DNA of 64,000 nucleotides from Muribaculaceae bacterium (GTDB lineage: Bacteria > Pseudomonadota > Alphaproteobacteria > Rs-D84): the NCBI GenBank assembly GCA_023665245.1, contig JAMPEH010000002.1, positions 186,001-250,000 of the forward strand, in the 5' to 3' direction. Below the pieces are notes generated by a model. The model was not told the DNA's origin, searched no databases, and saw only the letters and a program-made list of their open reading frames with translations. Positions 8,347-62,451 of the stretch are shown one piece after another (position 1 is the stretch's first letter; every line of letters begins with the position of its first letter). The position numbers were made by a program, and so were the translations under genes.

Positions 8347-8562
8347 TTGCATTTCCATATTTTTATTGATAATATCTTTCTTGAACCAAAGCATAATGGT
8401 TCGGGGTGTCAGAACCCTTTATCAAACCGTCTGCGATGCGGACGTTAAATATAAAACTCCAACTTATCTGGGTTGGAGGGCTGGTGAATATATTGAATAA
8501 GCCGCACAATTCGTTTGATATTGTTCTGAACCTCCAACCACCGCATTGTCTGGTGGTTTTTT
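8347..8562 (+). promoter_or_regulatory. Structured attenuator-type leader, copy 1, with promoter
   Basis: Promoter TTGCAT-N17-TAATAT (8347-8375), then a leader RNA. P0 hairpin GAACCA/TGGTTC (8383-8402). Long-range stem P1: TCAGAAC (8409-8415) with GTTCTGA (8523-8529), and TATCAAAC (8420-8427) with GTTTGATA (8513-8520). P2: CTCCAAC (8457-8463) with GTTGGAG (8472-8478). The conserved GAATATATTGAATAAGC segment follows at about 8486-8502. CCTCCAACC (8531-8539) can pair instead with GGTTGGAGG (8471-8479). Terminator AACCACC/GGTGGTT with a T run to 8562. Ribosome site AAGGAGG and the ATG of the Cys-rich gene follow. Confidence 0.85.
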
Positions 8563-8588
8563 CGTAAAACAGAAAAAAGGAGGTTTTT

Positions 8589-9227
8589 ATGCGAAAAAAT
8601 ATATGCATTGTGTTGACCGCAATTGGTATTGGAATCACGATGCCTGTCGTGGCGCGCGATTTTGTTGAATGTGTTGTGTCAACCGGACAAAATGAAGGAT
8701 TTATGTATAATGATGGAAATCAGGACAGGTGTTGTTTGCTTGATAGAACAACATGTCCAGAGATAAGCACTTTCAGTTGTGATGGATTTTTTAATATGTC
8801 TGGGGTATGGAGTGGTACCGCAAGGTTGAGTATAGGTATGGGAGGAACTGATTGCTATATAAATATTAAACCTGGTATGTACCTATCTGATTCGTATGAT
8901 GTGTTTGCAGAATATAGAACCGCAAATGATATTTTTTTTGAATGTTATTCTGGGAATTATTGTCCTGGGATGCAATTAACGTATACTGAAATAAAAGGTA
9001 AATATTGGGGCAGTACCAGTATTGGTGTGATTCAATGTCCCGATGCGCCAAGTGTTTTTATTGATTCAAGCCTGACCAAATATGCAACGGTTGGTAATGG
9101 GCATATTTTGTCAATGCCTGGTGCAGCTGCGATAACGTCATGCTATTTGGCACCGGGTACATATTATGATAGTACAGGGACATATAAGATATTAGATACG
9201 GGGACGAATTGTGCGTATGCGCAATAA
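8589..9227 (+). CDS. Secreted Cys-rich protein, unit 1
   Basis: A 212-residue protein with a signal peptide (MRKNICIVLTAIGIGITMPVVA) and a mature part with many cysteines, often in CxxC-like pairs (DRCCLLDRTTCPEISTFSCD). The C-terminus has the family motif ITSCYLAPGT...DSTGTYKI...NCAY. It is probably exported and stabilised by disulfides, at the surface or in the periplasm (inference). Function unknown. It is preceded by structured leader copy 1 and a strong AAGGAGG site. It shares only the C-terminal motif and general composition with the other units. Confidence 0.75.
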   Translation: MRKNICIVLTAIGIGITMPVVARDFVECVVSTGQNEGFMYNDGNQDRCCLLDRTTCPEISTFSCDGFFNMSGVWSGTARLSIGMGGTDCYINIKPGMYLSDSYDVFAEYRTANDIFFECYSGNYCPGMQLTYTEIKGKYWGSTSIGVIQCPDAPSVFIDSSLTKYATVGNGHILSMPGAAAITSCYLAPGTYYDSTGTYKILDTGTNCAYAQ

Positions 9228-9231
9228 ATCC

Positions 9232-9259
9232 TTGCAAATATTGTAAAAAGATATATAAT
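9232..9259 (+). promoter_or_regulatory. Promoter of tRNA-Lys
   Basis: TTGCAA, a 16-nt spacer and TATAAT, ending 43 nt before the tRNA. It shows the TTGC-type -35 seen across the window. Confidence 0.6.
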
Positions 9260-9302
9260 CTGCACGTCTTGAACGGATATTTTGATGTTCAATACGTGTT
9301 TT

Positions 9303-9378
9303 GGATGCGTAGCTCAGTTGGTAGAGCAACTGACTCTTAATCAGTGGGTCCAGGGTTCGAGTCCCTGCGCGTCCACCA
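9303..9378 (+). tRNA. tRNA-Lys (anticodon CUU)
   Basis: A 76-nt cloverleaf: acceptor GGATGCG pairs with CGCGTCC (one G·U), the D loop has AGCTCAGTTGGTAGAGC, the anticodon stem ACTGA/TCAGT holds loop CTCTTAA (anticodon CTT), the T arm has GGTTCGAGTCC, the discriminator is A, and CCA is encoded. It reads AAG lysine codons. Confidence 0.96.
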
Positions 9379-9384
9379 AAAATT

Positions 9385-9412
9385 AAACCGCCGTATGGCG
9401 GTTTTGTTTTTT
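9385..9412 (+). terminator. Intrinsic terminator after tRNA-Lys
   Basis: AAACCGCC-GTAT-GGCGGTTT hairpin followed by a T-rich tract; it ends the tRNA transcript just before the convergent SDR gene. Confidence 0.75.
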
Positions 9413-10299: not shown

Positions 10300-10538
10300 G
10301 ATTTACCTCTTTGGTTTGTTTGGTTTATTTTATTTATGATGAAATATTTGCGCCATAGGATAGAAAGTTTGCAGATATGCAAATTATGATGTGTGTGGCG
10401 GATTTTATGGTGTTTGCGCGGTTGTATACGTGGTGGATATAAGAATCCTTACCTATGCAAAGATTTGAAACGCTTTGATAGAATTAAATTGTTGACATGA
10501 AAACCTTTAAACAACCAAAAAAGAAAAAAGGAGAAAAA

Positions 10539-16008: not shown

Positions 16009-16229
16009 TTGCTTGCGCGGGGGCGGTCTGTGATATATCATTTCCGTGTTGTCGGGAATTCCGACAATGGGGTTTAGCGACCCTTCATTAGACGTCGCAC
16101 ATGCGTTAGATGTGTGAATCTTCTCCAATTGATATTCGGTTGGAGGGTGTGGAAATATACTGAATACCACCGCTATTTCTAATGATAGTCGCTAACCTCC
16201 AACCACTGAAATATATTCGGTGGTTTTTT
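16009..16229 (+). promoter_or_regulatory. Structured attenuator-type leader, copy 2, with promoter
   Basis: Promoter TTGCTT-N17-GATATA (16009-16037). P0 TTGTCGG/CCGACAA (16049-16067). P1: TAGCGAC (16075-16081) with GTCGCTA (16188-16194), and TCATTAG (16085-16091) with CTAATGA (16179-16185). P2: CTCCAA (16123-16128) with TTGGAG. P3: GTGG/CCAC around AAATATACTGAATA. GGTTGGAGG (16138-16146) versus CCTCCAACC (16196-16204). Terminator AACCAC/GTGGTT with T run to 16229. P1 shares almost no sequence with copy 1, yet both arms pair fully. Confidence 0.85.
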
Positions 16230-16261: not shown

Positions 16262-16684
16262 ATGAAAAAACTTTTTCTATATTTGGGGATGTGTATGATT
16301 TGCCCCGTCCCAGATGCATGGTCGGCGCCAAACGCTTGCAATTGTGATTGGCAGGTTGGTGTCACACAGCAATACGCAGCAAATTGCACGGATTCGTCGT
16401 TTATTAATAGTTGCACTGGTACAATCACGGCCAGTATTGTAGATGGTGTGTGCACACCAATATGTAAATCCAGTGGCGGTATAACACCGACCCGGCCTAC
16501 ATCGTGTGCCAAAGGTACATATTTAAATGCGTTAAAAACACTGTGTTTGGATTGTCCAAATGGTGGAACAACAGTCGTGCGTGGCAGTATATCAATAACC
16601 GATTGTTATTTGCCGTCGGGGACAACCGTGACAGATAGCACCGGCACGTATACTGTACAGGGGGATTGTTATTATTCGAAATAA
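16262..16684 (+). CDS. Secreted Cys-rich protein, unit 2
   Basis: A 140-residue protein with a signal peptide (cleaved after about AWSA) and closely spaced cysteines (CNCDWQVG, ANCTDSSFINSCTG, VCTPICKSSGG, TLCLDCPNGG). It ends in the family motif ITDCYLPSGT...DSTGTYTV...DCYY, the best consensus example in the window. Preceded by leader copy 2 and an AAAGGAGG site. Function unknown; export is inferred from the signal peptide. Confidence 0.75.
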   Translation: MKKLFLYLGMCMICPVPDAWSAPNACNCDWQVGVTQQYAANCTDSSFINSCTGTITASIVDGVCTPICKSSGGITPTRPTSCAKGTYLNALKTLCLDCPNGGTTVVRGSISITDCYLPSGTTVTDSTGTYTVQGDCYYSK

Positions 16685-23190: not shown

Positions 23191-23410
23191 TCATGGCATT
23201 TTTATAATGATTGCGTCGACAGGTGTTCTGTCGATGGGTGTGAGAACCCTTTTCTGGCGTCACGAAAATATACATGGCGCGTAGGCGTCTTTTTATTTAT
23301 CGCGATGGAAACCCCAGCATGGGCTGGGGGGCGGTGAATATATTGAATAAGCCCACAATTTCCAGAAGTTGTTCTCAACCCCCAGTCCACCATTAATTTT
23401 GGTGGTTTTT
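23180..23410 (+). promoter_or_regulatory. Structured attenuator-type leader, copy 3, with promoter
   Basis: Promoter TTGCGT-N17-TATAAT (23180-23208). P0 TCGACAG/CTGTCGA (23216-23234). P1: TGAGAAC (23241-23247) with GTTCTCA (23371-23377), and TTCTGG (23252-23257) with CCAGAA (23362-23367). P2: CCCCAGC (23312-23318) with GCTGGGG (23323-23329). The competing partner CCCCCAG at 23379-23385 changes together with P2, so both alternative pairings persist. Terminator CCACC/GGTGG with T5 to 23410. Confidence 0.85.
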
Positions 23411-23433: not shown

Positions 23434-23997
23434 ATGAAAGTAAAAATATTATGTATGACCATGGTGTCGTTAATTTGGACGTCTGGTTTGTCTGCACAGG
23501 TGTTATGGCTGAACGGCGGTGGTGGCGGTATTGCCGATTGGTGTTTGATTGGCAGTCCGACGGCAACACTTTCTGATACATCTGACAATACATGCTATTG
23601 GTGTGAAACCGGTGAACGATCGTCGGGGTATTGCACGTCACGATATGCCAGTTGTGCCGGCGGCAGTGATATGGTTGTGGCATCAGGTGGTATCATGACA
23701 GACACTTCAAATAATGCCAAGTGGCGGTGTACAGATGATGGATGGGTGTCGTATACTGAACCTGAGACGTGTTATAGTGGTGCCGGTTGCAAAGAGACAT
23801 GCTATTGGGATGCCGGCCCATATACGTGTTTATCGTGTCCAGCACCAGATTTTGTAAGTCTGTTGCCGGTGTCTGCACATACCGGTCAGGATGGTGTTCG
23901 TTCTGATATTACAGATTGCTTTATTTCGCGTGGTATTGGTTTTAGTGATGTGACGGGGACATTTGATATTCTGGGCGATTGTTATTATAGCTTGTAA
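23434..23997 (+). CDS. Secreted Cys-rich protein, unit 3
   Basis: A 187-residue protein with a signal peptide (MKVKILCMTMVSLIWTSGLSA) and a mature part rich in Cys, Ser, Thr and Gly (NTCYWCETGERSSGYCTS; GCKETCYWDAGPYTCLSC). It ends ITDCFISRG...DVTGTFDI...DCYY. It lies on the plus strand between sufB and sufC, which are both on minus, so it interrupts what is normally one operon. Ribosome site AAAGGGG. Function unknown. Confidence 0.75.
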   Translation: MKVKILCMTMVSLIWTSGLSAQVLWLNGGGGGIADWCLIGSPTATLSDTSDNTCYWCETGERSSGYCTSRYASCAGGSDMVVASGGIMTDTSNNAKWRCTDDGWVSYTEPETCYSGAGCKETCYWDAGPYTCLSCPAPDFVSLLPVSAHTGQDGVRSDITDCFISRGIGFSDVTGTFDILGDCYYSL

Positions 23998-27044: not shown

Positions 27045-28643
27045 ATGAATAAATCGCTGAAAAAAATAATGATGTTTATGTTTGCGGGCATGATTGTCGC
27101 TGGATGTGCAACCCGTGAATCGGCCAAGGTTGCCGCATCTGTCGACCAGGATTTTATTAATGCACACGATGCGTTTGAAATGGCGAAAAATCCGCGTGCC
27201 AAGGTTGCAACAGGCGACACTGTTTCTATGTCCGAAGGTGTATGGCTGGGGAATAAATCAACTGTGTTGGAACATCGTAATAATCTGCCGTCGCAGTTTG
27301 AAACGGATACCGGTGTGACAATTTTATTGAACGAGCCTGTGACCCTGCAAGTATTGGCGAATAACATTAATTCAATTACAGGTATTCCTGTAAAAATCGA
27401 CAGTCAGGTTAATTCTGAAAAATTACGCAAGACAGTAAATATTGCATATACGGGTAAATTATCAGGATTGCTGTCCCAGGTGGCGACGGATTTAGACCTG
27501 TTGTGGTACTATGATAAAAATTCAATTGTTTTCTATGAAACAGAAACCAAGACTTTTTCACTGTATGCGCTGGGGACAGATGTGTCGTATCAGACCGCGG
27601 TTCAGACCGATGATGGAAACCAGGTGTCTTTGGAATCCACTTTAAAAGAGTGGGACGAGGTTGAAAATGCCATTTCCGGAATTATTGGCAAGACGGATAA
27701 TGCAGACTTTTCTGTGTCGCGCAGTTTGGGTACAATTACTGTGACGGCGCCGCCATCGGTATTAAATCGTGTTGGTGAATATATCGCCCGTCAGAACAAG
27801 CGTCTGTCGCAATTGGTGACAATTGATGTCAAGGTTTTACAGGTATCAATTTCAAACAATTCTGCGTTCGGGTTGAATTTGGCGGCGGCAATTAATTCGG
27901 CATCTGGATTAAATATCGTTGCGAATCCGAAAAATAATCTTGCCACGACCGAGGCCAGTTCCATGAACATCGCGGTTCTGTCAAATGACTTGGCTAAATC
28001 TGTTGGTATGGCGGGATATAGTGACGATAAAATCAATAACGGTTCATTATCTGGTGTCGCCGGCAGCAGCGCATTGATAGAGGCATTGGCGAAACAGGGC
28101 AAGGTATCACTGGTGACAAACGTTGGTGTGACAACACGTAATAACCGTGTGGCGCCGGTAAATAATACGCGTACAACCGGATATATCAAACGTTTCGAAT
28201 CGCGCAACTTTACAACTGTTGAATCATCAACCGTTGACCAGGATGATTTGGAAACCGGATTTTCAATGCAGTTGTTGCCGAATATCTTGGAAAACGGCCG
28301 TATATTACTGTTATTCCGTATGTCTGTGCGTGAATTGTTGAAAATGTCAACGCAAACAATCGGCGAAGTGACATTACAATTGCCAGAGGTTGAAGAACGC
28401 TCCTTTATGCAGGAAGTAATCATGGAATCAGGCCAGATGTTGGTTGTATCGGGCTTTGAAAAGCAACAGGATAACGATACGCGTTATGGTTTGGGTGATC
28501 CGGACTTTATGGCACTGTCAGGCTCGCGCGAGACAACATCCCAGCGTGATGTATTGGTTGTGATATTAACGCCCCAGGTATTGGTCAGTCCGATGGATGC
28601 CGAACGTAATATCCAGCAGCATTGGGGCGCACCGTTGAATTAA
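27045..28643 (+). CDS. pilN: Type IVB pilus secretin, PilN family
   Basis: A 532-residue outer-membrane lipoprotein secretin: lipobox VAGC, N-terminal PilN/STN-like domains (TVNIAYTGKLSGLLSQVATDLDL), and a C-terminal secretin domain (ETGFSMQLLPNILENGRILLLFRMSV...VVSGFEKQQDNDTRYGLGD...DVLVVILTPQVLVSP). It forms the pore for a type IVB pilus or a secretion or competence pilus. Only TcpQ and the secretin are here; the ATPase, platform and prepilin peptidase must be elsewhere. A pilin-like gene is at 46948. Confidence 0.85.
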   Translation: MNKSLKKIMMFMFAGMIVAGCATRESAKVAASVDQDFINAHDAFEMAKNPRAKVATGDTVSMSEGVWLGNKSTVLEHRNNLPSQFETDTGVTILLNEPVTLQVLANNINSITGIPVKIDSQVNSEKLRKTVNIAYTGKLSGLLSQVATDLDLLWYYDKNSIVFYETETKTFSLYALGTDVSYQTAVQTDDGNQVSLESTLKEWDEVENAISGIIGKTDNADFSVSRSLGTITVTAPPSVLNRVGEYIARQNKRLSQLVTIDVKVLQVSISNNSAFGLNLAAAINSASGLNIVANPKNNLATTEASSMNIAVLSNDLAKSVGMAGYSDDKINNGSLSGVAGSSALIEALAKQGKVSLVTNVGVTTRNNRVAPVNNTRTTGYIKRFESRNFTTVESSTVDQDDLETGFSMQLLPNILENGRILLLFRMSVRELLKMSTQTIGEVTLQLPEVEERSFMQEVIMESGQMLVVSGFEKQQDNDTRYGLGDPDFMALSGSRETTSQRDVLVVILTPQVLVSPMDAERNIQQHWGAPLN

Positions 28644-29543: not shown

Positions 29544-29756
29544 TTGCAATATTTACTTTTTTACAATATAATGTGGTCGCATTGGCATTGTCCGGTGCGG
29601 GGTGTCGAAACCTCTCTTTAAGGTGTCTGAGCAGGACATTAAATCTCTCTCCAACTGATTAAGGTTGGAGGGTTTGCGAATATATTGAATAAGCAACACT
29701 ATTCCTTAAAGTAGTTTCGAACCTCCAACCGACCGTGAATTGTTTACGGTGGTTTT
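29544..29756 (+). promoter_or_regulatory. Structured attenuator-type leader, copy 4, with promoter
   Basis: Promoter TTGCAA-N17-TATAAT (29544-29572). P0 GCATTGG/CCGGTGC (29579-29598, G·U pairs). P1: TCGAAAC (29605-29611) with GTTTCGA (29714-29720), and CTTTAAGG (29616-29623) with CCTTAAAG (29704-29711). P2: CTCCAAC (29649-29655) with GTTGGAG. P3: TTGC/GCAA around GAATATATTGAATAA. GGTTGGAGG (29663-29671) versus CCTCCAACC (29722-29730). Terminator ACCGT/ACGGT with a T4 tract to 29756. Confidence 0.85.
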
Positions 29757-29774: not shown

Positions 29775-32700
29775 ATGCGACGTTTTTTATTGGGTGTGAT
29801 TTTTTCTTTGGCAACATCTGGTGCATACGCGGCCGGCTATACTTGCGATAGTATCAAGCAGTATACGTCATGTAATACTGGTTATTATATGAGTGGTACC
29901 GGTACAGGTAATTCGTGCAAGGCGTGTACAATTAGTGTGTCAAATTGTACCGCTACGTCGCAATCATGCAGTGTGAATTGTTCGGGAAATAATACATCTG
30001 CGTGTCCGGCAAATTCGACATGTACATATAATTCATCTTATAAGTATAGTGGATCACAAACACGTTCTGCATCTTTGACCAGTGGTGGAACAAACACTTC
30101 TTGTTATTGCTCTTATGGTAGTTGGGGCACATGCAGCGCCACCGCAGGAACGTGTCCGTTATCTTCGTTTAGTTGTAATGCCAAGTATTATAAAAATGGC
30201 TCGTCTTGTTCTCCCTGTTCGGGTGTATCGTTTACAGAAAATGGTTCGGATACAGAAACTGTGACGGGTGGAACGCGTACACGTACTAAGTCACGTACAT
30301 GTTATCGTACGACCAGCGCGGCGGGCAGTACGGCATCATCACAATGTACAGGCAGTGCGAGTTGTGGAAATTGGACGTATGGTTCGTGGGTATATTCTTG
30401 TTCATCAGGATATACCGCGACCAGTTCTGCATGTTCATGTAATACACCGTGTACCAGTGTTGCCAATCTTTCTTCTACACAAGGTTGTACGCGTACGTGT
30501 TCGGTGTCGGGTGGAACGTGTTATTATTCGGGGGCAACACAGACGTGTGCCGGTAATTACACCAGTCCTGGGTGTAATTCTGCCGGTGCGTCGTGCAGTG
30601 GGTGTTCCCGTTGGGGGACGTGCAGTGGCGGTACGCGGTATATCACGTGCCCGGCCGGTACATATTGGAACGGCAGTTCATGTGGAACCTGTACCGCAGG
30701 ATATTATTGTTCAGGATTCAAAGATGTTGCAGAAACGAGTTTGAGTAATGGATACGGACGCGCACAATGTGGTGCTGGTACATATTCTGGTTCTGGGGCA
30801 TCCAGCTGTACATCATGTCCGGCAGCGTCAAACAGCAAGGTTTTTGTATATATGTCAAAATCTCTTGTCACAAGTCCCGCAGGCTCAACAGCGGCAACAC
30901 AATGTTATTTGGACAAAAGTATTGGTGATTTTTGGGTATATGAATCAGATAGATATAATGGGTTCTGGCGTACGTCATCGAATACAGGAAAGTGCTATTA
31001 TGAAACAACAGGTGCGCGCTATGATAATTGCAATGGCACCAGACATTTTTCCGAAGCACGGGCTGGATATTTCTTGGATGGTTCGGGGACTACAACGGCG
31101 GCCAGTGGTGCGGCAGGTAATTTCGCAAACCGTATAACCGGGTGTGCAAACGGCTCTTATACGACAAGTAGCGGAACAGCGGCGGGGTCGTTTAATGTTC
31201 CCTATACTTATGCGACCAGTTGTACGGCGTGCGGTGCAGGAAAAACAAATTCTGGTACGGCCAATACATCATGTGGTTCAGATTGTACTGCTATTACCGG
31301 GCGCTATTCATGGGCAACGCCATCATGGTCAAACAACAGTGTATCAAACTTGTGCAAGGCGGCATCTTGTAATACAAATTATTATCTGTCCGGTGGCAGT
31401 TGTTCGGGATGCCCTTCAACACATCCAAACAGTGCAAATAATAATACCGGTGGTGCCGGCAGTTGCTATAAGTCTTGTACCCGTCCGTGTACGCAACAAT
31501 CGTGTCCGGCAAATGCAACATGTACGCATGGGACAACGTCAACATCCGGGACGGAATATTATGGTGGTTCATGCAATGCGGCGACATCTACGTGTTCAAT
31601 AACTGTCACGTGCAATGCTGGATATTATAAGAACAGCAGTGGTACATGTACGGCGTGTGAAAACGGGTACTATTGCAAAGGCGATAATTCGCGTACTGCG
31701 TGTTCAACATTAGGGGCCGGATATACCAGTTCCGATGGTGCACGCAGCGGAACCGGCAATTGCTATCAATCGTGTTCCAAGGCATGTACACAACAGGCGT
31801 GTCCATCAACCGCGTCGTCTTGTTCACATGGCAATTCATCCACCACAGGTACCCAGCATTACGGTGCGTCATGTACTGCGGCGGCGTCTTCGTGCAGTTT
31901 GACAGTCAACGGCTGCAAGGCAAACTATTTCAAAGAGGGTAATGCGTGTACGACGTGTCCATCTGGATATCCGTATGCAGATGCGGGTACTACGTCATCG
32001 GGCAAGTGTTATAAAAACAGTACAAAATATGGTGGACGCAATAATGCTGCTTTGCCGACAGGGTGTGCCGCGCAGACCCAGAATGAGTGTACATTGAATT
32101 CTTGTACATATCGCACGTATGCCGATGGAACAACATCCAGTTGCACGGTCTACAATTGTACCAATACGCACAAGGCATGCACGTCGGCCAGTACGAATTA
32201 TTATCTGGCGTCGGGTGTGGCCAAGGCGTGCAGTGGCAGTTATCCAAATTCTGCGGGTGGAAATATTGACAGCAATTCATGTTATGGCACCTTCAGTAAA
32301 TCTGGCAGTCAGTTAGAGCCGACGGCACCCGCGGTGCCATCGGGATGTGCAACACGCACGTACAGTACATCTGCCTGTACGCCGGGGTCTTGCAATTATA
32401 CCAAATATGCCAGTGGTACAATCAAGGATGACTGTACACCGACGAACTGTACCAAGACCGCAACAATCACATCGGTCAAGGCGAATACGAACAGTTATGT
32501 TGATGGCGTGTCTTGCAAGACTTGCACCAGTTTCAACAGTTCGTATCCGTTATCAGATGGTGGCAGTATCAGCAATGCGTATTGCTATGCATCTAAGACC
32601 AGCAAGGGTACGATTGTTCGCGCTGACGCGGCGTGCGTCACCAACAGTTGCACGTATAACACATGTTCTTGTACACCGGGGACATGTACGTGGCGTGATT

Positions 32701-33371
32701 ATTATAATGTAACTGATACATCGTGTGTGCCTGATAATTGCAGTTGTACAAATACTGTAAAATCATGGACGGGTAATCCGGGGTACTATTTCAACGGGTC
32801 GTCAATGGCGAAATGTGTTGCCGGTAATTATTGCGCTGGGTTTACGGTGATATCTGCGCCGACAAATGGTGTGGGGCTGACCGTATGCGACACTAATAAA
32901 TATTCTGATGTGGGGGCGTCATCGTGCACGGCATGTGATACCACGCATGGATATGGCAACAGTGGCAGTGCGGCCGCCAATCACGCGGGCGTTGCATCCT
33001 GCAAAGTGACGTGTTCGGGTGGCCAATATGTGGCAACTGCATCTGCAGGGTGCACAAATGTTGGTGCCGGATATTGGGGGGCGGGTGGTACCGTCGCACA
33101 AAATGCAACATTGGCACGTACGGCGTGTGCGTCTGGCCTGACCACCATTGGGTATGGACGTGGCGCGGACGAGGCCGCCGACTGTGGCCGTATCTTGCAT
33201 GCTGGTGATAAACAGATTTATCTGCGCAATGTGAAAAAGACAACGCCATCACTGAACGTCAAGATTGGTGACACCACGTACTATGGCAATATGACGGCGG
33301 GTGCGTTGGATGGATATCTAATAATAAAGGATGGTGACGTCACATATCGTGTCCATGATGACAGCAAATAA
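29775..33371 (+). CDS. Giant secreted Cys-rich repeat protein, unit 4
   Basis: A 1198-residue exported protein (signal peptide MRRFLLGVIFSLATSGAYA) made almost entirely of Cys/Ser/Thr/Gly/Asn-rich modules with recurring C..GYY.....C and CPAGTY-like patterns, comparable in style to eukaryotic furin/GCC2-like repeats. One ~100-residue unit is clearly duplicated: the segments coded from about 31460 (SCYKSCTRPCTQQSCP) and 31756 (NCYQSCSKACTQQACP). The C-terminus differs from the other units: a Cys-poor ~60-residue domain (QIYLRNVKKTTPSLNVKIGD...) that may be an anchoring or sorting domain (inference). Preceded by leader copy 4. Confidence 0.75.
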   Translation: MRRFLLGVIFSLATSGAYAAGYTCDSIKQYTSCNTGYYMSGTGTGNSCKACTISVSNCTATSQSCSVNCSGNNTSACPANSTCTYNSSYKYSGSQTRSASLTSGGTNTSCYCSYGSWGTCSATAGTCPLSSFSCNAKYYKNGSSCSPCSGVSFTENGSDTETVTGGTRTRTKSRTCYRTTSAAGSTASSQCTGSASCGNWTYGSWVYSCSSGYTATSSACSCNTPCTSVANLSSTQGCTRTCSVSGGTCYYSGATQTCAGNYTSPGCNSAGASCSGCSRWGTCSGGTRYITCPAGTYWNGSSCGTCTAGYYCSGFKDVAETSLSNGYGRAQCGAGTYSGSGASSCTSCPAASNSKVFVYMSKSLVTSPAGSTAATQCYLDKSIGDFWVYESDRYNGFWRTSSNTGKCYYETTGARYDNCNGTRHFSEARAGYFLDGSGTTTAASGAAGNFANRITGCANGSYTTSSGTAAGSFNVPYTYATSCTACGAGKTNSGTANTSCGSDCTAITGRYSWATPSWSNNSVSNLCKAASCNTNYYLSGGSCSGCPSTHPNSANNNTGGAGSCYKSCTRPCTQQSCPANATCTHGTTSTSGTEYYGGSCNAATSTCSITVTCNAGYYKNSSGTCTACENGYYCKGDNSRTACSTLGAGYTSSDGARSGTGNCYQSCSKACTQQACPSTASSCSHGNSSTTGTQHYGASCTAAASSCSLTVNGCKANYFKEGNACTTCPSGYPYADAGTTSSGKCYKNSTKYGGRNNAALPTGCAAQTQNECTLNSCTYRTYADGTTSSCTVYNCTNTHKACTSASTNYYLASGVAKACSGSYPNSAGGNIDSNSCYGTFSKSGSQLEPTAPAVPSGCATRTYSTSACTPGSCNYTKYASGTIKDDCTPTNCTKTATITSVKANTNSYVDGVSCKTCTSFNSSYPLSDGGSISNAYCYASKTSKGTIVRADAACVTNSCTYNTCSCTPGTCTWRDYYNVTDTSCVPDNCSCTNTVKSWTGNPGYYFNGSSMAKCVAGNYCAGFTVISAPTNGVGLTVCDTNKYSDVGASSCTACDTTHGYGNSGSAAANHAGVASCKVTCSGGQYVATASAGCTNVGAGYWGAGGTVAQNATLARTACASGLTTIGYGRGADEAADCGRILHAGDKQIYLRNVKKTTPSLNVKIGDTTYYGNMTAGALDGYLIIKDGDVTYRVHDDSK

Positions 33372-33601: not shown

Positions 33602-33869
33602 TTGTTTTTGTCCAGGCGGTGTCTTATAATTTTATCCGAATTCAACAGGGATGTTGGTTTCAGGGACCTAAGAAATCCCATAACGATACGGTGCATTTAT
33701 GCACTGAAAATCCAAATGTTGTGGCATTGTCACAACGTATTTTTCCCGTCCGATTTTGGTCGGGGGTCTGTCGGCTATACAACAGTGTGCACTGCACGCA
33801 AAGGCCGACAGGGTCATTTTTCGTTATGATTTTCTTAATCCCCGACCACCAATCTGTTTGGTGGTTTTT
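33602..33869 (+). promoter_or_regulatory. Structured attenuator-type leader, copy 5 (divergent), with promoter
   Basis: Promoter TTGTTT-N17-TATAAT (33602-33630). P0 CAACA/TGTTG (33643-33656). P1: TAAGAAA (33669-33675) with TTTCTTA (33831-33837), and CATAACGA (33679-33686) with TCGTTATG (33821-33828). P2: CCGA/TCGG (33750-33763). P3 is enlarged: CTGTCGGC (33768-33775) with GCCGACAG (33804-33811). Competing pair GGTCGGGG (33758-33765) and CCCCGACC (33840-33847). Terminator ACCACC/GGTGGT with T5. The usual GGTTGGAGG and GAATATATTGAATAA sequences are absent, yet every pairing is kept. Confidence 0.72.
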
Positions 33870-33897: not shown

Positions 33898-34653
33898 ATG
33901 AAAAGAAAAAATATAAACGCGTGGCGCGGTATGGCGATTGTTGTGGGCGTTGGCACGCATATGCATTGTGCAATGGCGGCGCCAACGGTCGCCCAATGTA
34001 AAACAGTTTACAGCGATATTAACTGTGCGGAATATAGGTTGGATACGGCGTCAAATTCAGATGGCAGTGCGCTGTATATATGTATGTGTATAAATTGCGC
34101 CAAGGATTATGCATTGGATAGCGGTGCAACACGTGGCAACAACCGGGATGCCAATGGATATCATTTTTATAATCCAAATGCATGTGGATATCGGCCAAAC
34201 AGTAGCAGTGGTGGCGTATCCAGTGCATGTACATCTGCGGGTGGCAGTGCATGCACCGTGTGTCAGGGGCCGAATTACACCATAAATGGCGTAATGTATT
34301 GTGGCATGTATTCAGATGGGGTAAAAACGTGCAGTGGGCCGGGTGGGGCACAGTCCGCGTATCAGATGTCCAATTGCTGTAAAGACAATAAGGCCTATCA
34401 GGTATCTGGATGTTTTGTTATGGCATGTAAAACAGGGATGGTTGTTTCCCCAGCCAAGACATCGTGTATATGTCAGGTTGGATATTATGGTAATTGGCAA
34501 TCATGTACGCAATGTCCGGCATTGAATGGATTTCATGGTTTGACATCTGGGACTGGGGCATCGGCGATAACAGATTGTTTTATCCCTGCGGGGGTATCAT
34601 TAACAGATGGTACAGGTACGTATAAATTTACCAGTGATTGCAAATATCAATAA
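33898..34653 (+). CDS. Secreted Cys-rich protein, unit 5
   Basis: A 251-residue protein starting MKRKNINAWRGMAIVVGVG, with a signal peptide ending near CAMAA and about 25 cysteines. It ends ITDCFIPAGV...DGTGTYKF...DCKY. The reading frame is open further upstream (to 33619), but that part covers leader copy 5; ATG 33898 has AAAAAGGAG at the right distance and starts the signal peptide. Function unknown. Confidence 0.75.
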   Translation: MKRKNINAWRGMAIVVGVGTHMHCAMAAPTVAQCKTVYSDINCAEYRLDTASNSDGSALYICMCINCAKDYALDSGATRGNNRDANGYHFYNPNACGYRPNSSSGGVSSACTSAGGSACTVCQGPNYTINGVMYCGMYSDGVKTCSGPGGAQSAYQMSNCCKDNKAYQVSGCFVMACKTGMVVSPAKTSCICQVGYYGNWQSCTQCPALNGFHGLTSGTGASAITDCFIPAGVSLTDGTGTYKFTSDCKYQ

Positions 34654-43894: not shown

Positions 43895-43976
<82 letters not shown>

Positions 43977-44462
43977 CTAATTTTGGTAGTAGCAATCGGC
44001 CGTATATTTATATGTGCCGGTGGTATCAGAACCGGTGGTGCCAGATGGCAAATAGCAACTTGTTATTGCTGTACTGCCTGTGGCACTTTTTCCGGATTGT
44101 GGACATGGTGAACATGTATTGCCGTTTTTATAATAATTTGCATTGCACTTAAAACTGGTTGCGGATGTACATGTACTGTTTGCAACAGGGCATTTTTCAC
44201 ATGTACACATATCCAGTAAATCTGTTCCCTCGTAATATCCATTGTCACAAGTGCATTTAACTATCGGTGATTTTATACAGCACATACATTTTGTATTGGA
44301 ACAATTTGGCATTGTTTGTGAACAGATTGTAATCGTTCGTTTGCCACCAGTAATGGTCTCGGTTTCTATGCTGTCTCCAGGACACGTGGATGGCGTACTC
44401 AGGCAATATGCATTTGTGCAGTATAGGGTACCTATACTAATATAGATTAAAAGTTTTTTCAT
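43977..44462 (-). CDS. Secreted Cys-rich protein, unit 6
   Basis: A 161-residue protein with a signal peptide (MKKLLIYISIGTLYCTNAYC) and about 24 cysteines in modules such as CSNTKCMCC, CTCDNGYYEGTD, CEKCPVANSTCTSATSFKCNANYYKNGNTCSPCP, closely similar in style to parts of the giant unit 4. It ends ITSCYLPSGT...DTTGTYKY...DCYY. Its stop codon directly abuts the 42-nt homopolymer. Function unknown. Confidence 0.75.
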   Translation of the reverse strand: MKKLLIYISIGTLYCTNAYCLSTPSTCPGDSIETETITGGKRTITICSQTMPNCSNTKCMCCIKSPIVKCTCDNGYYEGTDLLDMCTCEKCPVANSTCTSATSFKCNANYYKNGNTCSPCPQSGKSATGSTAITSCYLPSGTTGSDTTGTYKYTADCYYQN

Positions 44463-44486: not shown

Positions 44487-44545
44487 TGACCCTCCCCGTC
44501 ACTGCTTCGCCAAGGCTTCGCAGTGCCACCCCTCCGGTGGTGGGG
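44487..44545. repeat. Palindromic element between leader 6 and its gene
   Basis: Two small inverted repeats, CACTGC...GCAGTG and CCACC...GGTGG, separate the leader-6 terminator from the ATG. The other leaders have only about 20-30 nt there, so this looks like an inserted intergenic palindrome. Confidence 0.5.
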
Positions 44546-44548: not shown

Positions 44549-44781
44549 AAAAACACCGCTTGGGTTAGAAGCGGTTGGAGGTTCGAAACTATAAAATGGT
44601 ATAGTGTGTTTATTTTGCGCAAAATAAATGCGCATTATTCACAGCCCTCCAACCGAAAATGTTCATGTTGGAGATTACTTTTCGTCCGCATTTGCGAACG
44701 CCATTTTCACGGGTTTCGACACCCCGATATCAGAACACCTGATATCACGCTAATATTAATTCAGAATACGCTGTAATTCAA
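44549..44781 (-). promoter_or_regulatory. Structured attenuator-type leader, copy 6, with promoter
   Basis: Minus-strand promoter TTGAAT (44781-44776), N17, TAATAT (44758-44753). P0 GATATCAG/CTGATATC (44726-44746). P1: TCGAAAC (44719-44713) with GTTTCGA (44589-44583), and AAAATGG (44707-44701) with CCATTTT (44599-44593). P2: CTCCAAC (44673-44667) with GTTGGAG. P3 TGTG/CACA carries an extra TGCGCA/TGCGCA hairpin inside the conserved loop. GGTTGGAGG (44654-44646) versus CCTCCAACC (44581-44573). Terminator ACCGCTT/AAGCGGT with T5. Confidence 0.85.
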
Positions 44782-53626: not shown

Positions 53627-53867
53627 TTTACTTAAAATCGATAGTTTCCTATAATGTTTGTGTCACAGTGAATTGCTGTGATGGGGCATGACAACCTCTC
53701 TGACGCGTTGGAATAGAATCTTGGGGCGCGTTGCGCCGTTTTTTATTACAACGAAAATATAACTCCTGGCTTTATTGGTCAGGAGGACGGTTGAATATTC
53801 AATAAACCGTGCTACTCGTTAGATAGTTGTCAACCTCCTGGCCACCTGAATTTTTCTGGTGGTTTTT
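53627..53867 (+). promoter_or_regulatory. Structured attenuator-type leader, copy 7, with promoter
   Basis: Promoter TTTACT-N17-TATAAT (53627-53655). P0 TCACAG/CTGTGA (53663-53681). P1: TGACAAC (53689-53695) with GTTGTCA (53826-53832), and CTGACG (53700-53705) with CGTTAG (53817-53822, one G·U). P2: CTCCTGGC (53763-53770) with GTCAGGAG. P3 CGGTT/AACCG around GAATATTCAATA. GGTCAGGAGG (53777-53786) versus CCTCCTGGCC (53834-53843). Terminator CCACC/GGTGG with T5. The switch arms changed from TTGGAGG to TCAGGAGG in all three places together. Confidence 0.85.
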
Positions 53868-53892: not shown

Positions 53893-54462
53893 ATGTGGCG
53901 ACTATTTTGGTTTTTGATATGTGTTGTGATTTCACAATCTGCGTTTGCTGTTACTACATTAAAAACTGTTGAGTGCTGTTCAGAACCATTTTGCACCGCT
54001 ACATCTGTTTCTGCCTGTGCCATTACGTGCAGTCATTGTTATACGGGTGGTATTGGTGGCGGTGAACTGGTTCATACGTGTTTACAAATGGTTGATTCGT
54101 GCCCAACTGTTTCAAATCCAACATGGTTAATAACACGTGGTGAACTATATGATATATATAGTAAAATTACAGCCTATAACTATGAATGGAGTGATGATGA
54201 AAATAAATGTGTATGTAATCCTGTGACTGAATATGCATGTTCAAAAGGCTATTACCCAGTTATTGATACGTACGGCGGTGCGTGGTGTACGTCGTGTCCA
54301 CGGGATAATGTGTCAGATTGTAATGGTACATCTGATGATTATTCAACCAGTATTTCATCGTGTTATTTGCCGGCTGGTCGTATGTTTGCAGATGATACAG
54401 GTTATTACGAATATGACGAAAATTGTTATTACACTGCGGATAGACCGATAGTTAAGAACTAG
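53893..54462 (+). CDS. Secreted Cys-rich protein, unit 7
   Basis: A 189-residue protein with a signal peptide (MWRLFWFLICVVISQSAFA) and a mature region with about 18 cysteines (VECCSEPFCTATSVSACAITCSHC; NKCVCNPVTEYACSKGYY). It ends ISSCYLPAGR...DDTGYYEY...NCYY plus about ten more residues. Ribosome site TAGGAGAG. Function unknown. Between its stop and ppa there is no gene; an ATG-less remnant-like stretch (about 54470-54560) shows similarity of style only. Confidence 0.75.
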   Translation: MWRLFWFLICVVISQSAFAVTTLKTVECCSEPFCTATSVSACAITCSHCYTGGIGGGELVHTCLQMVDSCPTVSNPTWLITRGELYDIYSKITAYNYEWSDDENKCVCNPVTEYACSKGYYPVIDTYGGAWCTSCPRDNVSDCNGTSDDYSTSISSCYLPAGRMFADDTGYYEYDENCYYTADRPIVKN

Positions 54463-55934: not shown

Positions 55935-56357
55935 CATGTCGTCGCCCGGGGGCCACGGTGCGTGCGCTGTGAGTGGTTCGTGGACAACATCCAGTGCGCG
56001 AGCCGACAAAACTAAAACTTTCAAGTCCCACTCCTGCCTGCGCAGGAGTGACAATAGGAGTAAGTATAAATATATGTGTGTAAAATCATACTTTATCATT
56101 ACCATACATATAGCAATATTTGTCACTCCTGCGTAGGCAGGAGTGGGACTATTAACCTAGATCTCGGTGTCATCATCACCCATAAAATTTAACAATTTTG
56201 CGGGGCCTGAACGCCGGGGTGACGATAAGTTTTAAGTTTAAAACGCGATACTTTACACATTCTCGTCATGCCGTCGAAGGACGGCATCCATTGTCATTAA
56301 TTGCCACCGCCTTTGGCGGGGGCTGTCAGGCTTTGCCTGACTGGGGGTGGCTATATA
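55935..56357. repeat. Second cluster of intergenic palindromic repeats
   Basis: The 55811-56374 spacer holds no gene but several elements: CACTCCTGC/GCAGGAGTG (56029-56050) within a ~110-bp block (ACAATAGGAG...ATAAATATATG...GTGTAAAAT) also found at 28830-28940; an inverted copy of the same arms (56124-56145); GCCGTCG/CGACGGC-like arms (56269-56285); and the CCACCGCC...GGGGGTGG element (56303-56350), shared with 29340-29385. Confidence 0.7.
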
Positions 56358-56374: not shown

Positions 56375-56857
56375 TTATTCCGCGTAATTACAGTTTTCGG
56401 AATATGTGCCACTGCCGGTGGTGTCGGAAAATGCGGTCCCGGCGGGAATATAACATTCTGTGATTTGTGTCGCACCACGGTCGGCGGTTGTTGCGCTGGG
56501 GTGGCCGGTTGTGGTTGCACATTTGTTGCATGTTTTGTTGAGTAGGGTTGGTGTGCCATAGTATCCGGCGGCACATGTGTACGTGGTGCTGGGCAGACAA
56601 CTGACTATATTTGTGTCGGTACTGCTGGTTGCGCATGTGACTGTTTCGGTATATTGTTTCACGGTGATGACGCCGTTTGCGTCTGGGGCACTGTATGATG
56701 GTGTGGCGTATCCTGAACCGTATTTGGCGAGACAACAATTTGTTGTGCATGCGGTGTCATCTGTATGGTACGGGCATTTGGCGCAGCAGTTAAGTGCCGC
56801 ATGTGCGGTTGTGCTGGCGATGATTGTTATTGTTGCGATTGTTATTATTTTGTTCAT
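56375..56857 (-). CDS. Secreted Cys-rich protein, unit 8
   Basis: A 160-residue protein starting MNKIITIATITIIASTTAHA (signal peptide) with Cys in CCAKCPYHTDDTACTTNCC, CATSSTDTNIVSCLP, YTCAAGYYGTPTLLNKTCNKC. It ends ITECYIPAGT...DTTGSGTY...NCNY. The frame is open further upstream to 57076, but that part is leader copy 8; ATG 56857 has TCGGAGG at the right distance. Function unknown. Confidence 0.75.
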   Translation of the reverse strand: MNKIITIATITIIASTTAHAALNCCAKCPYHTDDTACTTNCCLAKYGSGYATPSYSAPDANGVITVKQYTETVTCATSSTDTNIVSCLPSTTYTCAAGYYGTPTLLNKTCNKCATTTGHPSATTADRGATQITECYIPAGTAFSDTTGSGTYSENCNYAE

Positions 56858-56890: not shown

Positions 56891-57114
56891 AAAAACCGCC
56901 AAGTCAAAGGCGGTTGGAGGTTCGAAACTACAATACAGTATAGTGTGCTTATTGGTGCGTACAATGTACGCATTATTCACAACCCTCCAACCGAAAAATC
57001 TGTTGGAGTTTGTTTGTTCGTTCTTTTCTGAACGCTGTATTCCGGGTTTCGACACCCCATCATGGCAACACGCCACGACATTGAAATTATATATAATCTG
57101 ATAGTTGTTTTACA
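56891..57114 (-). promoter_or_regulatory. Structured attenuator-type leader, copy 8, with promoter
   Basis: Minus-strand promoter: TATAAT near 57091-57096, with a weak TGTAAA 17 nt upstream. P0 TGGC/GCCA (57063-57075). P1: TCGAAAC (57052-57046) with GTTTCGA (56928-56922), and AATACAG (57041-57035) with CTGTATT (56938-56932). P2: CTCCAAC (57008-57002) with GTTGGAG. P3 TGTG/CACA with an inserted TGCGTAC/GTACGCA hairpin. GGTTGGAGG (56992-56984) versus CCTCCAACC (56920-56912). Terminator AACCGCC/GGCGGTT with T5. Close sister of copy 6 in layout. Confidence 0.85.
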
Positions 57115-57720: not shown

Positions 57721-58086
57721 TTACTGTGATACGACAATGTATTTGTGGCGTGAAACCGGCTTTGGCATGCCGCATGTATTGCATCCACATGATGGGGCAT
57801 ATACTGGTTGTGCGGCTGGTGCCAAAATCTGACGGTCGGCACGTGGTGCCATGCCAAAATTATCGCGTGCGTATAAATCGGCGCAGCGTGTATTGCGATA
57901 TATGATTTTTTTGTTGTTATCCAAACTGCGGATGTCGGATGAATAGTGGTTGCCATTTTCGCCGGCGTAATATATGCAATCTGGGCCGTCCTGGGTATAA
58001 CGGATGCCCGCCTTGTAATAATCATAATAATCAGCACATCCCGCCAATGCAACCAATGCGATAACAGAAACTAAAACATTTTTCAT
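57721..58086 (-). CDS. Predicted lipoprotein, Cys-containing
   Basis: A 121-residue lipoprotein: MKNVLVSVIALVALAGC lipobox (Cys 17), a Tyr/Asp-rich stretch (ADYYDYYKAGIRYTQDGPDCIYYAGENG), and a C-terminal CGCNTCGMP motif. No family recognised. Start 58086 is chosen because the signal peptide begins there. Own terminator; single gene. Confidence 0.6.
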   Translation of the reverse strand: MKNVLVSVIALVALAGCADYYDYYKAGIRYTQDGPDCIYYAGENGNHYSSDIRSLDNNKKIIYRNTRCADLYARDNFGMAPRADRQILAPAAQPVYAPSCGCNTCGMPKPVSRHKYIVVSQ

Positions 58087-59629: not shown

Positions 59630-59658
59630 TTGCATTTTGGAATTGTTGCGGGTAAAAT
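59630..59658 (+). promoter_or_regulatory. Promoter for tolB
   Basis: TTGCAT-N17-TAAAAT, 36 nt before the tolB ATG. The 59480-59630 stretch upstream is GT-rich low-complexity DNA (repeated TGTAAATAC/TGTTTGTG-like units) with no gene. Confidence 0.55.
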
Positions 59659-59694
59659 TAGGCATAAGAATTTTTATCAGGAAAGGATATTCGT

Positions 59695-61014: not shown

Positions 61015-61040
61015 AAAAATCCCCATTTGGGGATTTTTTT
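61013..61040 (+). terminator. Terminator after tolB
   Basis: AAAAAAATCCCC-ATTT-GGGGATTTTTTT. Confidence 0.85.
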
Positions 61041-61064
61041 AGAGTGAAGATAATAGGTAGTAGA

Positions 61065-61475
61065 GTGAAGGTATTTGTAAGTTTCTTGTCGGGATTAATG
61101 TTGTTAAGTACGGCATATGCCGTGCCGGCACGTGTTGGCTATATTGTTGATGGTGATACGTTTTCAGGTGTTGTAAGGTTAGAAGATGATATTGAAATTT
61201 CTGTGCGTATTCGTCTGCGTAATGTTGATACGCCTGAATTGCACGGTGGGTGCGTAAATGAAATCATAATGGCGAATTTGGCACGCGACAGGTTGGCGGA
61301 ACTGATGCCTGTTGGGTCAACGGTTGATTTGCAGAATATCAAGGATGACAAATACTTGGGGCGAATTGATGCAAATGTAATTTTGCCTGACGGTCGTGAT
61401 GTGGGCGATGTATTGATTGCTGAAAAGCACGGCCGGCCATATGGTGGTGGCCGACGCGCCCCATGGTGTGATTAA
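61065..61475 (+). CDS. Secreted thermonuclease-like (SNase) protein
   Basis: A 136-residue exported nuclease (signal peptide VKVFVSFLSGLMLLSTAYA). SNase-fold motifs: VDGDTFSG (calcium Asp), RLRNVDTPE (catalytic Arg and Glu), KYLGRIDANV (second catalytic Arg). All three catalytic positions appear kept, so it is probably active on DNA/RNA outside the cytoplasm. GTG 61065 is preferred because the signal peptide starts there; an alternative GTG lies at 61043. Confidence 0.8.
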   Translation: MKVFVSFLSGLMLLSTAYAVPARVGYIVDGDTFSGVVRLEDDIEISVRIRLRNVDTPELHGGCVNEIIMANLARDRLAELMPVGSTVDLQNIKDDKYLGRIDANVILPDGRDVGDVLIAEKHGRPYGGGRRAPWCD

Positions 61476-61483
61476 AATAAATT

Positions 61484-62224
61484 CTAAGAACCGTAATAGC
61501 AATTTTGACTTAGGGTGAAAACACCTGTTTTATCCATATACAAATTCTTACTGGTTCCAGATCCTGATGCGATATAGCATGAATATATATCGGTAGATCC
61601 CGCCTTGGATGTGCCTTCGACTTTGTCCAGTGGGAAATATTCGCCGTCTTCATATTCTGCCCAAAAGAAATCTGCATTTGGGCACTTTATACATGGTCCG
61701 GTTTCTGTTTTTGCGTAATATCCAGCATTGCATGATACGGGTGTATCGTCCCCACCATCAGAACCACCGATATTGGGGTCATCATATGTTCCAGATACCC
61801 ATCCTGTGTTGGTACATTCGTAATAAGTGACTGTTGATGTTGTTGCTGTTCTATGATCTACCTGTGGCACCCGTGTTCCAAAATCGTAATATATGGCATC
61901 GCCATATTCGCCACTGGTACTGCATACGTTATCAACGCATACTTCTTGGGCCCACTTTAGAGTTTTTCCTGGTTGTGGTAACCAATATTCGTCCCCCGGC
62001 AGTTGTTTTGGCACACACACGTGGCACGGATGCTCTTCGCCCCAATAGCTTAGGGCACAGTATTGTCTGCGGATGCCTTCTGGCCACTCTAATCGTATGC
62101 CTGCGGGTGTTGCGGCCGTGGCGGTGCCAATCTGATACGATACCAGCATTGATATTAGAATATAAAAACTGCGCTGTTGTGGCGTTATGATAGATATCAA
62201 TCCGCCAAGACTAATTTTTTTCAT
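61484..62224 (-). CDS. Secreted Cys-rich protein, unit 9
   Basis: A 246-residue protein with an N-terminal hydrophobic signal (SFYILISMLVSYQIGTATA, after a short charged start) and fewer, spaced cysteines (YCALSYWGEEHPCHVCVP, VCVDNVCSTSGEYGD, VSCNAGYYAKTETGPCIKCP). It ends IYSCYIASGS...DKTGVFTL...NCYY. ATG 62224 uses AAAGGAGG. Convergent with the SNase gene, 8 nt apart. Function unknown. Confidence 0.75.
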   Translation of the reverse strand: MKKISLGGLISIITPQQRSFYILISMLVSYQIGTATAATPAGIRLEWPEGIRRQYCALSYWGEEHPCHVCVPKQLPGDEYWLPQPGKTLKWAQEVCVDNVCSTSGEYGDAIYYDFGTRVPQVDHRTATTSTVTYYECTNTGWVSGTYDDPNIGGSDGGDDTPVSCNAGYYAKTETGPCIKCPNADFFWAEYEDGEYFPLDKVEGTSKAGSTDIYSCYIASGSGTSKNLYMDKTGVFTLSQNCYYGS

Positions 62225-62250
62225 TCATGGCCTCCTTTTTCTGTGAATGA

Positions 62251-62451
62251 AAAAACCGCTGAAAAATCATCAGACGGTTGGAGGCTCAAAACTATCAAGA
62301 AAAATAGCGGGCTTATTCAATATATTCGCCGCCCTCCAACCAAGTGTTGGAGTATTCGCATTTTGTCGCAATGCGTTCGTTTCTTGCAGAGGTTTTGAGT
62401 CCTCATCCCCAGAATACCCGGGAACATAACACAGGATAGTATAAAAAAGTG
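62251..62451 (-). promoter_or_regulatory. Structured attenuator-type leader, copy 9
   Basis: A minus-strand -10 (TATACT) lies near 62442-62437; the -35 is weak. P0 CCCGG/CTGGG (62422-62408, one G·U). P1: CTCAAAAC (62399-62392) with GTTTTGAG (62292-62285), and CAAGAAA (62386-62380) with TTTCTTG (62302-62296). P2: CTCCAAC (62352-62346) with GTTGGAG. P3 GCGGC/GCCCGC around GAATATATTGAATAA. GGTTGGAGG (62341-62333) versus CCTCCAACC (62284-62276). Terminator AACCG...CGGTT with T6 (62256-62251). Confidence 0.85.

Follow-up and report, generated by a model that had tools for sequence, protein, structure and literature searches.

An sRNA-Xcc1-related leader RNA with a C4-like layout and a terminator, multiplied across a bacterial order with reduced genomes

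Background

Phages and mobile elements are known to silence genes of their own by means of small RNAs. In phage P4, the CI RNA and the site seqA terminate a constitutive transcript early, and read-through yields the downstream product (PMC10111431); for C4 RNA, RNase P is reported to cut at a GG that marks the 5' end of the outer stem, and the loops a' and b' to pair with targets (PMC5320573); and the short RNA IsrK of Salmonella Gifsy-1 refolds its own read-through mRNA in trans (PMC4825925). A further small RNA, sRNA-Xcc1 (Rfam RF02221), is 88 nucleotides (nt) long by rapid amplification of cDNA ends (PMC2996969) and has been reported in Xanthomonas integron cassettes (PMC12444791), in five clustered copies in a Xylella island (PMC12189769) and in Escherichia coli EDL933 (PMC5331693); such reports treat it as a stand-alone small RNA tied to virulence regulation. 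Here we describe a leader RNA that occurs in nine copies in a 64,000-nt stretch of bacterial DNA (contig JAMPEH010000002.1, positions 186,001 to 250,000; this whole stretch is called the window), that looks like a relative of these silencing RNAs, and that is multiplied across an order of gut bacteria with reduced genomes.

Results and discussion

Nine copies of a selected, covarying leader RNA

An initial annotation of the window, made from the letters alone, had proposed nine structured leaders with a common order of parts, and all nine are confirmed in position, strand and element order (Table 1; copies 1 to 6 lie on the plus strand and copies 7 to 9 on the minus strand). Each leader begins with a hairpin, P0, followed by a G-tract hairpin that holds X1, by X2, usually by one more hairpin, and by the strands A and B; next come a hairpin with a GAATA/GAATAA-type internal loop in most copies, a hairpin with X2' in its loop, X1', the strand C and a terminator, behind which stand a Shine-Dalgarno-like sequence and an open reading frame (ORF), with an additional stretch between terminator and ORF in copy 7. 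X1 and X2 are the outer and inner 5' strands of a long-range stem, P1, and together make up an upstream target, U; X2'-X1' (jointly X') are the return strands of P1. A is the 5' strand of the stem P2, B is its partner, and C is the segment CCTCCAACC, which has the same sequence as A and is able to pair with B.

We built a covariance model, R1, that spans B through the terminator, on 51 copies (54 had been selected) that came from other genomes and none from the window; it gave 15 matches in the window at E ≤ 1. Nine of these lie on the strands of the nine leaders (88.7 to 31.0 bits, E 2.6e-19 to 2.5e-5, the weakest being copy 5), and the other six, all weaker, are antisense mirrors of six of the nine sites. 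Thus, a model that had seen no window copy finds exactly nine sites, and at this sensitivity there is no tenth.

The covariation is strong. Among 118 copies found by the model (100 loci), 15 of 16 core pairs show two-sided changes, 96.1% of cells hold standard pairs and the observed values on five measures were reached by 0 of 500 shuffles, in an alignment that includes the R1 training copies and is fitted to the R1 structure, so that this test leans towards structure; when the partner is shifted by 1-3 columns, pairing falls to 32-56%. In the 51 training copies, two-sided changes occur in 5 of 16 pairs, a count matched by 106 of 500 shuffles, in copies whose B is fixed by the search pattern that selected them, and the covariation score was matched by none of the shuffles. 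Two leaders folded against 200 shuffles each gave z = -6.2 and -5.3. These results support a selected, covarying leader RNA, as had been proposed from the nine copies.

The pairing of P1, which the initial annotation had traced through widely differing sequences, is real and element-specific. In the window, the mean duplex energy of own strands is -16.2 kcal/mol, compared with -7.0 kcal/mol for swapped strands, and own strands pair best in eight of nine copies, the exception being copy 7 (at 44549), which has a slight preference for the copy 9 return strand (at 62251; -15.4 versus -14.3). Beyond the window, elements were taken from the initial pattern search, which fixes B and the P3 loop and whose occurrences, at least 125 as listed, are biased to that form. 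An alignment-free test gave a P1 score of at least 13 for own strands in 104 of 115 elements versus 1227 of 13110 swapped pairs, and a separate shuffle test found an upstream complement to the P1 return strands in 99 of 107 elements versus 12 of 107 shuffled; the 107 are those of 125 occurrences that could be scored (14 had no recognised C, the rest were short of flank), and the totals of 115, 109 and 98 in other tests arose for like reasons.

Promoter-like boxes, terminator and gene starts

The order of signals around the leaders is that of a transcribed unit. By script, the best -10-like hexamer lies 6-10 nt 5' of P0 in seven of nine window copies, and reads TATAAT in five of them; it lies elsewhere in copies 7 and 9. 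Promoter-like boxes precede 55 of 98 elements, compared with 15 of 98 in a control stretch. Of 109 elements, 96 have an intrinsic terminator behind C, compared with 3 of 109 shuffled sequences and 1 of 29 sRNA-Xcc1 loci. In the window copies the 5' arm of the terminator overlaps the last bases of C. In 93 of the 114 occurrences with enough flank, an ORF of 50 amino acids (aa) or more, with a Shine-Dalgarno-like sequence at its start codon, begins within 70-115 nt of the core, and a start follows closely in eight of nine window copies.

These counts bear on two other explanations of the element. The promoter-like boxes and the terminator would also suit independent genes for trans-acting small RNAs that end at the terminator, the genes behind being reached by chance read-through or from other promoters; sRNA-Xcc1 itself, with its 88 nt (PMC2996969), was termed trans-acting in the title of a 2011 paper. 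We consider this unlikely, since a gene start stands close behind the core in 93 of 114 cases and the upstream target sits in the same transcript. Much less probable still is a DNA recombination site, such as an integron attC-like site or another mobile cassette end, that folds as a single strand. The presence of sRNA-Xcc1 in integron cassettes (PMC12444791) and the many copies per genome, some of them in tandem, are in its favour; the consistent order of promoter-like box, terminator and gene on the transcribed strand, the two-sided changes that preserve pairs, and the poor fit of A and B to the attC core consensus all speak against it.

Relation to sRNA-Xcc1

The initial annotation recognised no published class in the leaders. 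This is correct insofar as Rfam at its gathering thresholds reports only tRNAs in the window, but it misses a relationship below the cut-off. The cut-off of RF02221 is 53 bits, and all of its matches to the element lie beneath it (30-51 bits): the full model matches the core of copy 4 (33.3 bits, E 2e-4, in a scan of 211 bases) and, in a scan of the whole window, copy 5 (38.7 bits, E 0.0032, the highest RF02221 score in the window although R1 scores this copy lowest) and the core of copy 9 (36.5 bits, E 0.01). The permissive whole-window scan, in which filters are stricter because the input is longer, omits the copy 4 match and contains no sRNA-Xcc1 match outside the leaders. On related genomes, RF02221 matched seven of seven at E ≤ 0.001, at 3 to 19 places each and with a best score of 51.4 bits, compared with 0 of 14 control genomes at the same threshold; in a sample of Pseudomonadota, 58 of 398 genomes had matches, 39 of them above the cut-off. 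In the reciprocal direction, R1 matches 9 of 30 true sRNA-Xcc1 loci at the same place (E ≤ 0.1). By these comparisons, which give full-length matches significantly above background, the leaders are related to sRNA-Xcc1, below its cut-off.

The matching region is the 3' half of the leader, consisting of B, P3, P4, the P1 return strands and C, so the outer stem, the first hairpin with an AATA-type loop, the second hairpin, X1' and the closing strand are common to both. The Rfam model does not include the upstream half of the leader. Most of the 30 true sRNA-Xcc1 loci that we read nevertheless have an upstream G-tract hairpin with X1 in its loop, followed by X2, and a second copy of X1 and X2 is frequent downstream, in the region of the ribosome-binding site. 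In cross-pair tests of 29 of these loci (L160, of unclear orientation, was omitted), an upstream X1-X2 copy scores at least 12 in 27 of 29 loci versus 188 of 812 swapped pairs, and a downstream copy at the ribosome site is present in 16 of 29 versus 49 of 812. Two partners are thus open to the middle RNA: its own leader and, in about half of the loci, the start of the gene. The window variant differs: the ribosome-site copy of X1-X2 was not found in it, neither in the narrower search (8 of 107 elements versus 9 of 107 shuffled) nor in a wider one over 350 nt (12 versus 11 of 98), and a terminator follows C. The same core therefore has two outputs, a terminator here and ribosome-site pairing in the sRNA-Xcc1 group. 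A nucleotide-similarity search with one strong sRNA-Xcc1 locus (L136) returned nothing from phages in near mode or from plasmids in distant mode.

One core with two outputs might equally be expected of a riboswitch in which the GAATA/GAATAA loop binds a metabolite or protein and sets the choice between A-B and B-C pairing, with P1 as a scaffold; varied expression platforms on one core are typical of riboswitches. The internal loop of P3 is invariant in the aligned copies (the search pattern forces this) and similar in most window copies, and an AATA-type loop recurs in many sRNA-Xcc1 loci. We nonetheless regard a ligand sensor as an unlikely explanation, about on a par with independent small RNA genes: the downstream genes have no evident common pathway or ligand, P1 is element-specific rather than conserved, which a sensor would not need, and the P1 strands often recur at the ribosome site in sRNA-Xcc1 loci.

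Two mutually exclusive folds

Since C repeats A and can pair with B, the structure with P2 as initially drawn is one of two mutually exclusive folds. A-B pairing is present in 107 of 118 copies, compared with 25 of 118 shuffled. The minimum-energy folds of all nine window copies pair part of C with the G-tract 5' of P1. In the energy model, full leaders form P1, A-B and the terminator in nine of nine copies (terminator probability 0.90-1.00, B-C at most 0.01); with U and A blocked, B-C rises to 0.67-0.99 across the nine copies and the terminator falls to 0.37-0.93. The off state is thus well supported by prediction. As blocking U alone rarely flips the fold, an on state would need A to be displaced too, and the model is weakest in this requirement and in the co-variation of A and B.

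A layout like that of C4

In the annotation of the phage P1 record the order is a1, b1 (both "putative"), C4 RNA, a2, b2 and icd, and the Rfam C4 and c4-a1b1 models place on it a leading hairpin, a small hairpin over a1, and C4 RNA with an outer stem and two hairpins; as we read the alignment, b' would lie in the loop of the second hairpin and a' before the closing strand of C4. The leaders are like phage P1 C4 (RF01695, RF03163) in having a leading hairpin, an a1-like segment in a small hairpin, a b1-like segment, and an antisense-type RNA with an outer stem and two hairpins, and the upstream a1-b1-like target is complementary to the antisense strands. They are unlike it in that the outer stem has 9 modelled pairs rather than 17, a downstream a2-b2 target at the ribosome-binding site is absent from the variant, and a terminator is added. 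A G-C pair occupies the first outer-stem position in 113 of 118 copies and the second in 115, which is compatible with the GG processing site reported for C4. Since the C4 and R1 profiles fail to match each other's targets, the link to C4 rests on layout, not on sequence; we would therefore call the leaders C4-like in layout, related to sRNA-Xcc1, and outside the C4 Rfam family. At 2890-2958 of locus L143, about 1.3 kb from a true sRNA-Xcc1 element, the c4-2 RNA family scores 34.8 bits, a weak match that falls short of its cut-off of 41.

Phage P4, likened here by description and not by sequence, also combines an antisense RNA and a nearby site in one leader, and its output is early termination, the kind of control that the leaders would exert; P4 has in addition a downstream site, seqC (named in PMC4825925), and no downstream site was found in the variant. 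IsrK (RF01394) resembles the leaders in that it exists within an mRNA as well as in a short, terminated form and can fold in alternative ways, as is predicted for the leaders; it differs in that its control is translational (PMC4825925). In phage P1 the isrK-model match and its T-run lie before C4; in the leaders the terminator lies after C. Translational control of the kind established for IsrK itself, in which the short leader RNA opens the read-through mRNA to ribosomes in trans, would find a possible means in the CCTCC of C, which could pair with GGAGG-type ribosome sites. The lack of X1-X2 at ribosome sites in the variant (both searches above) makes it a somewhat poorer candidate than the riboswitch. 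A literature search returned, in the text available, no passage linking sRNA-Xcc1 with C4, one paper naming both in a table without linking them; PMC8040213, with its thousands of candidate RNAs from human microbiomes, could hold the motif under another name.

A self-targeting transcription attenuator as the preferred reading

We favour, with a probability of roughly 0.6, the reading that each copy is an immunity leader of the C4/P4-CI type, that is, a self-targeting antisense transcription attenuator whose pairing is element-specific. The leader RNA would start from a promoter immediately 5' of P0, and in it the target U comes first and the antisense-type core after it. U would present X1 in the loop of a hairpin between a G-tract and a C-tract, followed by X2; the core would comprise the outer stem B-C, the first hairpin with the GAATA/GAATAA internal loop, the second hairpin with X2' in its loop, X1' as a single strand, and C. 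In the default state, pairing would join U to X2'-X1', the G-tract to part of C, and A to B, and the terminator would form, so that most transcripts should stop before the gene and leave a short stable RNA. With U and A otherwise engaged, B would pair with C, the terminator would weaken and transcription would read through; possible triggers are core RNA made earlier and acting in trans, ribosomes or upstream transcription running through the leader, or processing. Because the P1 strands differ among copies, each leader should respond mainly to itself. The P1 and B-C pairings with their covariation, the terminator, the relatedness to sRNA-Xcc1 and the layout can be read from the sequences; from these we infer that the folds interconvert in cells, in which direction control runs, that RNase P processes the RNA, and what biological purpose it has, which might be, for example, to turn surface proteins on and off independently.

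Several observations weigh against this attenuator. RF02221 is listed for only three of nine window copies, always under its cut-off, and for only two of eight scanned loci that carry the element. In the window at E ≤ 10, C4 (RF01695) has no match anywhere, the sole c4-a1b1 match (57737-57776, 17.4 bits) lies outside the leaders, and so does the sole isrK match (9332-9408, 19.7 bits), which lies over a tRNA; C4, c4-a1b1 and isrK are likewise not listed at E ≤ 0.5 for 20 of the 30 sRNA-Xcc1 loci, the number scanned, and R1 misses the C4 of phage P1 (844-920 of L168). In the energy model the terminator stays at 0.81 in copy 2 (16049) and 0.93 in copy 4 (29579) despite the blocking of U and A, and blocking U alone leaves A-B and the terminator mostly intact in eight of nine copies, copy 3 (23216) being the only one to flip. 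Co-variation of A with B is weak: in 16 variant elements own strands score 5.6 and swapped strands 5.2, and own strands are best in 4 of 10. Finally, the logic would be inverted relative to sRNA-Xcc1 loci, where pairing of U with X' should free the ribosome site.

Distribution across genomes

The initial annotation had proposed a covariance model and a search of related genomes, and this search found the element in 98 of 114 sampled genomes of one order, that of the genome holding locus L026, with 1 to at least 38 copies each (this survey and that of the class scored at most 38 candidates per genome, so 38 is a ceiling). Many genomes of about 1 Mb in that order have ten or more copies, and the shared leaders suggest that the genome of the window belongs to the order too. 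In the class of the same genome, 10 of 289 sampled genomes were positive, at least three of the ten from the same order. In 13 genomes chosen because they already held a match, R1 found 4 to 64 copies per genome in all 13. The pattern search returned at least 119 genome-contig stretches among the matches listed, with record titles, also among the matches listed, of uncultured Alphaproteobacteria, proteobacteria, "Rickettsiales bacterium", two "bacterium" and "Candidatus Enterousia", a genus of the order Rs-D84 with genomes mostly under 1 Mb (PMC12306168); three viral-contig records (L120, L121 and L122) match the pattern as well.

Three or four R1 matches cluster within about 0.5-1 kb at L062:2942-3736, L066:1121-2135, L049:5567-6073 and L029:2341-2928. 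One match of the L066 cluster is on the opposite strand, and the clusters resemble that of sRNA-Xcc1 in the Xylella island (PMC12189769).

Genes behind the leaders

The initial annotation placed the leaders in front of secreted, cysteine-rich genes. In the window this applies to all nine ORFs, which have 11 to 107 cysteines and, judged by eye, signal-like starts, but it does not extend across the clade. Elsewhere, an ORF was taken for 114 of 125 pattern occurrences, and the leading clusters have 35, 15, 12, 9 and 6 members; the largest (35 of 114) consists of small proteins, and the single member scanned matches helix-turn-helix families. By a crude test, signal-like starts occur in 48 of 114 downstream ORFs, 25 of which have at least six cysteines. 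None of the eight window ORFs that were scanned matched Pfam at curated cut-offs, and the 187-aa protein behind copy 3 has three entries in a protein collection and no relatives in viral contigs.

Most of the cysteine-rich window ORFs share a C-terminal motif, C[YF][IL]..G....D.TG.Y....C.Y, possibly a sorting or assembly signal. Shortly upstream of copy 4, at 27045-28643, is encoded a protein that resembles PilN-type outer-membrane proteins of type IVb pili (244 bits, cut-off 288) and might relate to export of the cysteine-rich proteins. The additional stretch between the terminator of copy 7 and its gene (44489-44545) contains inverted repeats and has no counterpart in the 60 bases behind the other eight terminators, and on the minus strand at 43935-43976 a run of 42 A comes directly after the stop codon of the same ORF and is followed by a hairpin. 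Copy 3 shows a joint change of A, B and C. Outside the leaders, at 56024-56150, lies an inverted repeat whose arms, each about 31 bases long, are nearly perfect; weak matches to microRNA precursor families at this place are due to the repeat and not to the leaders.

Table 1. Positions of the leaders, their parts and the ORFs behind them in the window (U, A, B, X' and C as defined in the text)
Feature	Position	Strand	Details
Leader copy 1, P0 to terminator	8383..8562	+	
Copy 1 U, G-tract hairpin with X1, plus X2	8403..8427	+	a1-b1-like
Copy 1 A strand	8457-8463	+	
Copy 1 antisense-type core, B to C	8471..8539	+	B 8471-8479; X2'-X1' 8506-8529; C 8531-8539
Copy 1 intrinsic terminator	8537..8562	+	5' arm overlaps end of C
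ORF behind copy 1	8589..9227	+	212 aa, 12 Cys; signal-like start by eye; C-terminal motif
Leader copy 2	16049..16229	+	U 16069-16091; A 16123-16131; B 16138-16146; X' 16173-16194; C 16196-16204; terminator 16202-16229
ORF behind copy 2	16262..16684	+	140 aa, Cys-rich
Putative promoter element, TATAAT -10-like box	23203..23208	+	7 nt 5' of copy 3 P0
Leader copy 3	23216..23410	+	U 23236-23257; A 23312-23318; B 23321-23330; X' 23355-23376; C 23379-23388; terminator 23387-23410
ORF behind copy 3	23434..23997	+	187 aa, Cys-rich
Leader copy 4	29579..29756	+	U 29599-29623; A 29649-29655; B 29663-29671; X' 29699-29720; C 29722-29730; terminator 29728-29756
ORF behind copy 4	29775..33371	+	1198 aa, 107 Cys; signal-like start by eye
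Leader copy 5	33640..33869	+	U 33663-33686; A 33745-33753; B 33758-33765; X' 33814-33837; C 33840-33847; terminator 33845-33869
ORF behind copy 5	33898..34653	+	Cys-rich
Leader copy 6	53663..53867	+	U 53683-53705; A 53763-53770; B 53777-53786; X' 53812-53832; C 53834-53843; terminator 53842-53867
ORF behind copy 6	53893..54462	+	189 aa, 17 Cys
Leader copy 7	44549..44746	-	U 44701-44725; A 44667-44673; B 44646-44654; X' 44583-44604; C 44573-44581; terminator 44549-44575
ORF behind copy 7	43977..44462	-	161 aa, 19 Cys; extra stretch between leader and gene
Leader copy 8	56891..57075	-	U 57035-57058; A 57002-57008; B 56984-56992; X' 56922-56943; C 56912-56920; terminator 56891-56914
ORF behind copy 8	56375..56857	-	Cys-rich
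Leader copy 9	62251..62422	-	U 62380-62404; A 62346-62352; B 62333-62341; X' 62285-62307; C 62276-62284; terminator 62250-62278
ORF behind copy 9	61484..62224	-	246 aa, 11 Cys

Conclusions

The window holds nine copies of a leader RNA that is new in combining an sRNA-Xcc1-related core, a C4-like layout and a terminator as output, and that is multiplied across a bacterial order with reduced genomes; we propose its mechanism with moderate confidence. The comparison suggests that sRNA-Xcc1 forms the central part of a longer leader in which a self-target precedes it and, often, the ribosome site offers another target, an arrangement like that of the c4 immunity region of phage P1. If true, this would alter the reading of sRNA-Xcc1 copies in integrons, islands and prophages. 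As pairing is mostly cognate, self-specific control by RNA is directly testable by compensatory mutation. More tentatively, and with the odds rather against it, a phage-type immunity RNA may have been domesticated as a standard switch in this order, such that up to dozens of barcode-like, self-recognising leaders per genome of about 1 Mb each toggle their own surface or regulatory gene independently, and cells of one population would show different sets of secreted cysteine-rich proteins.

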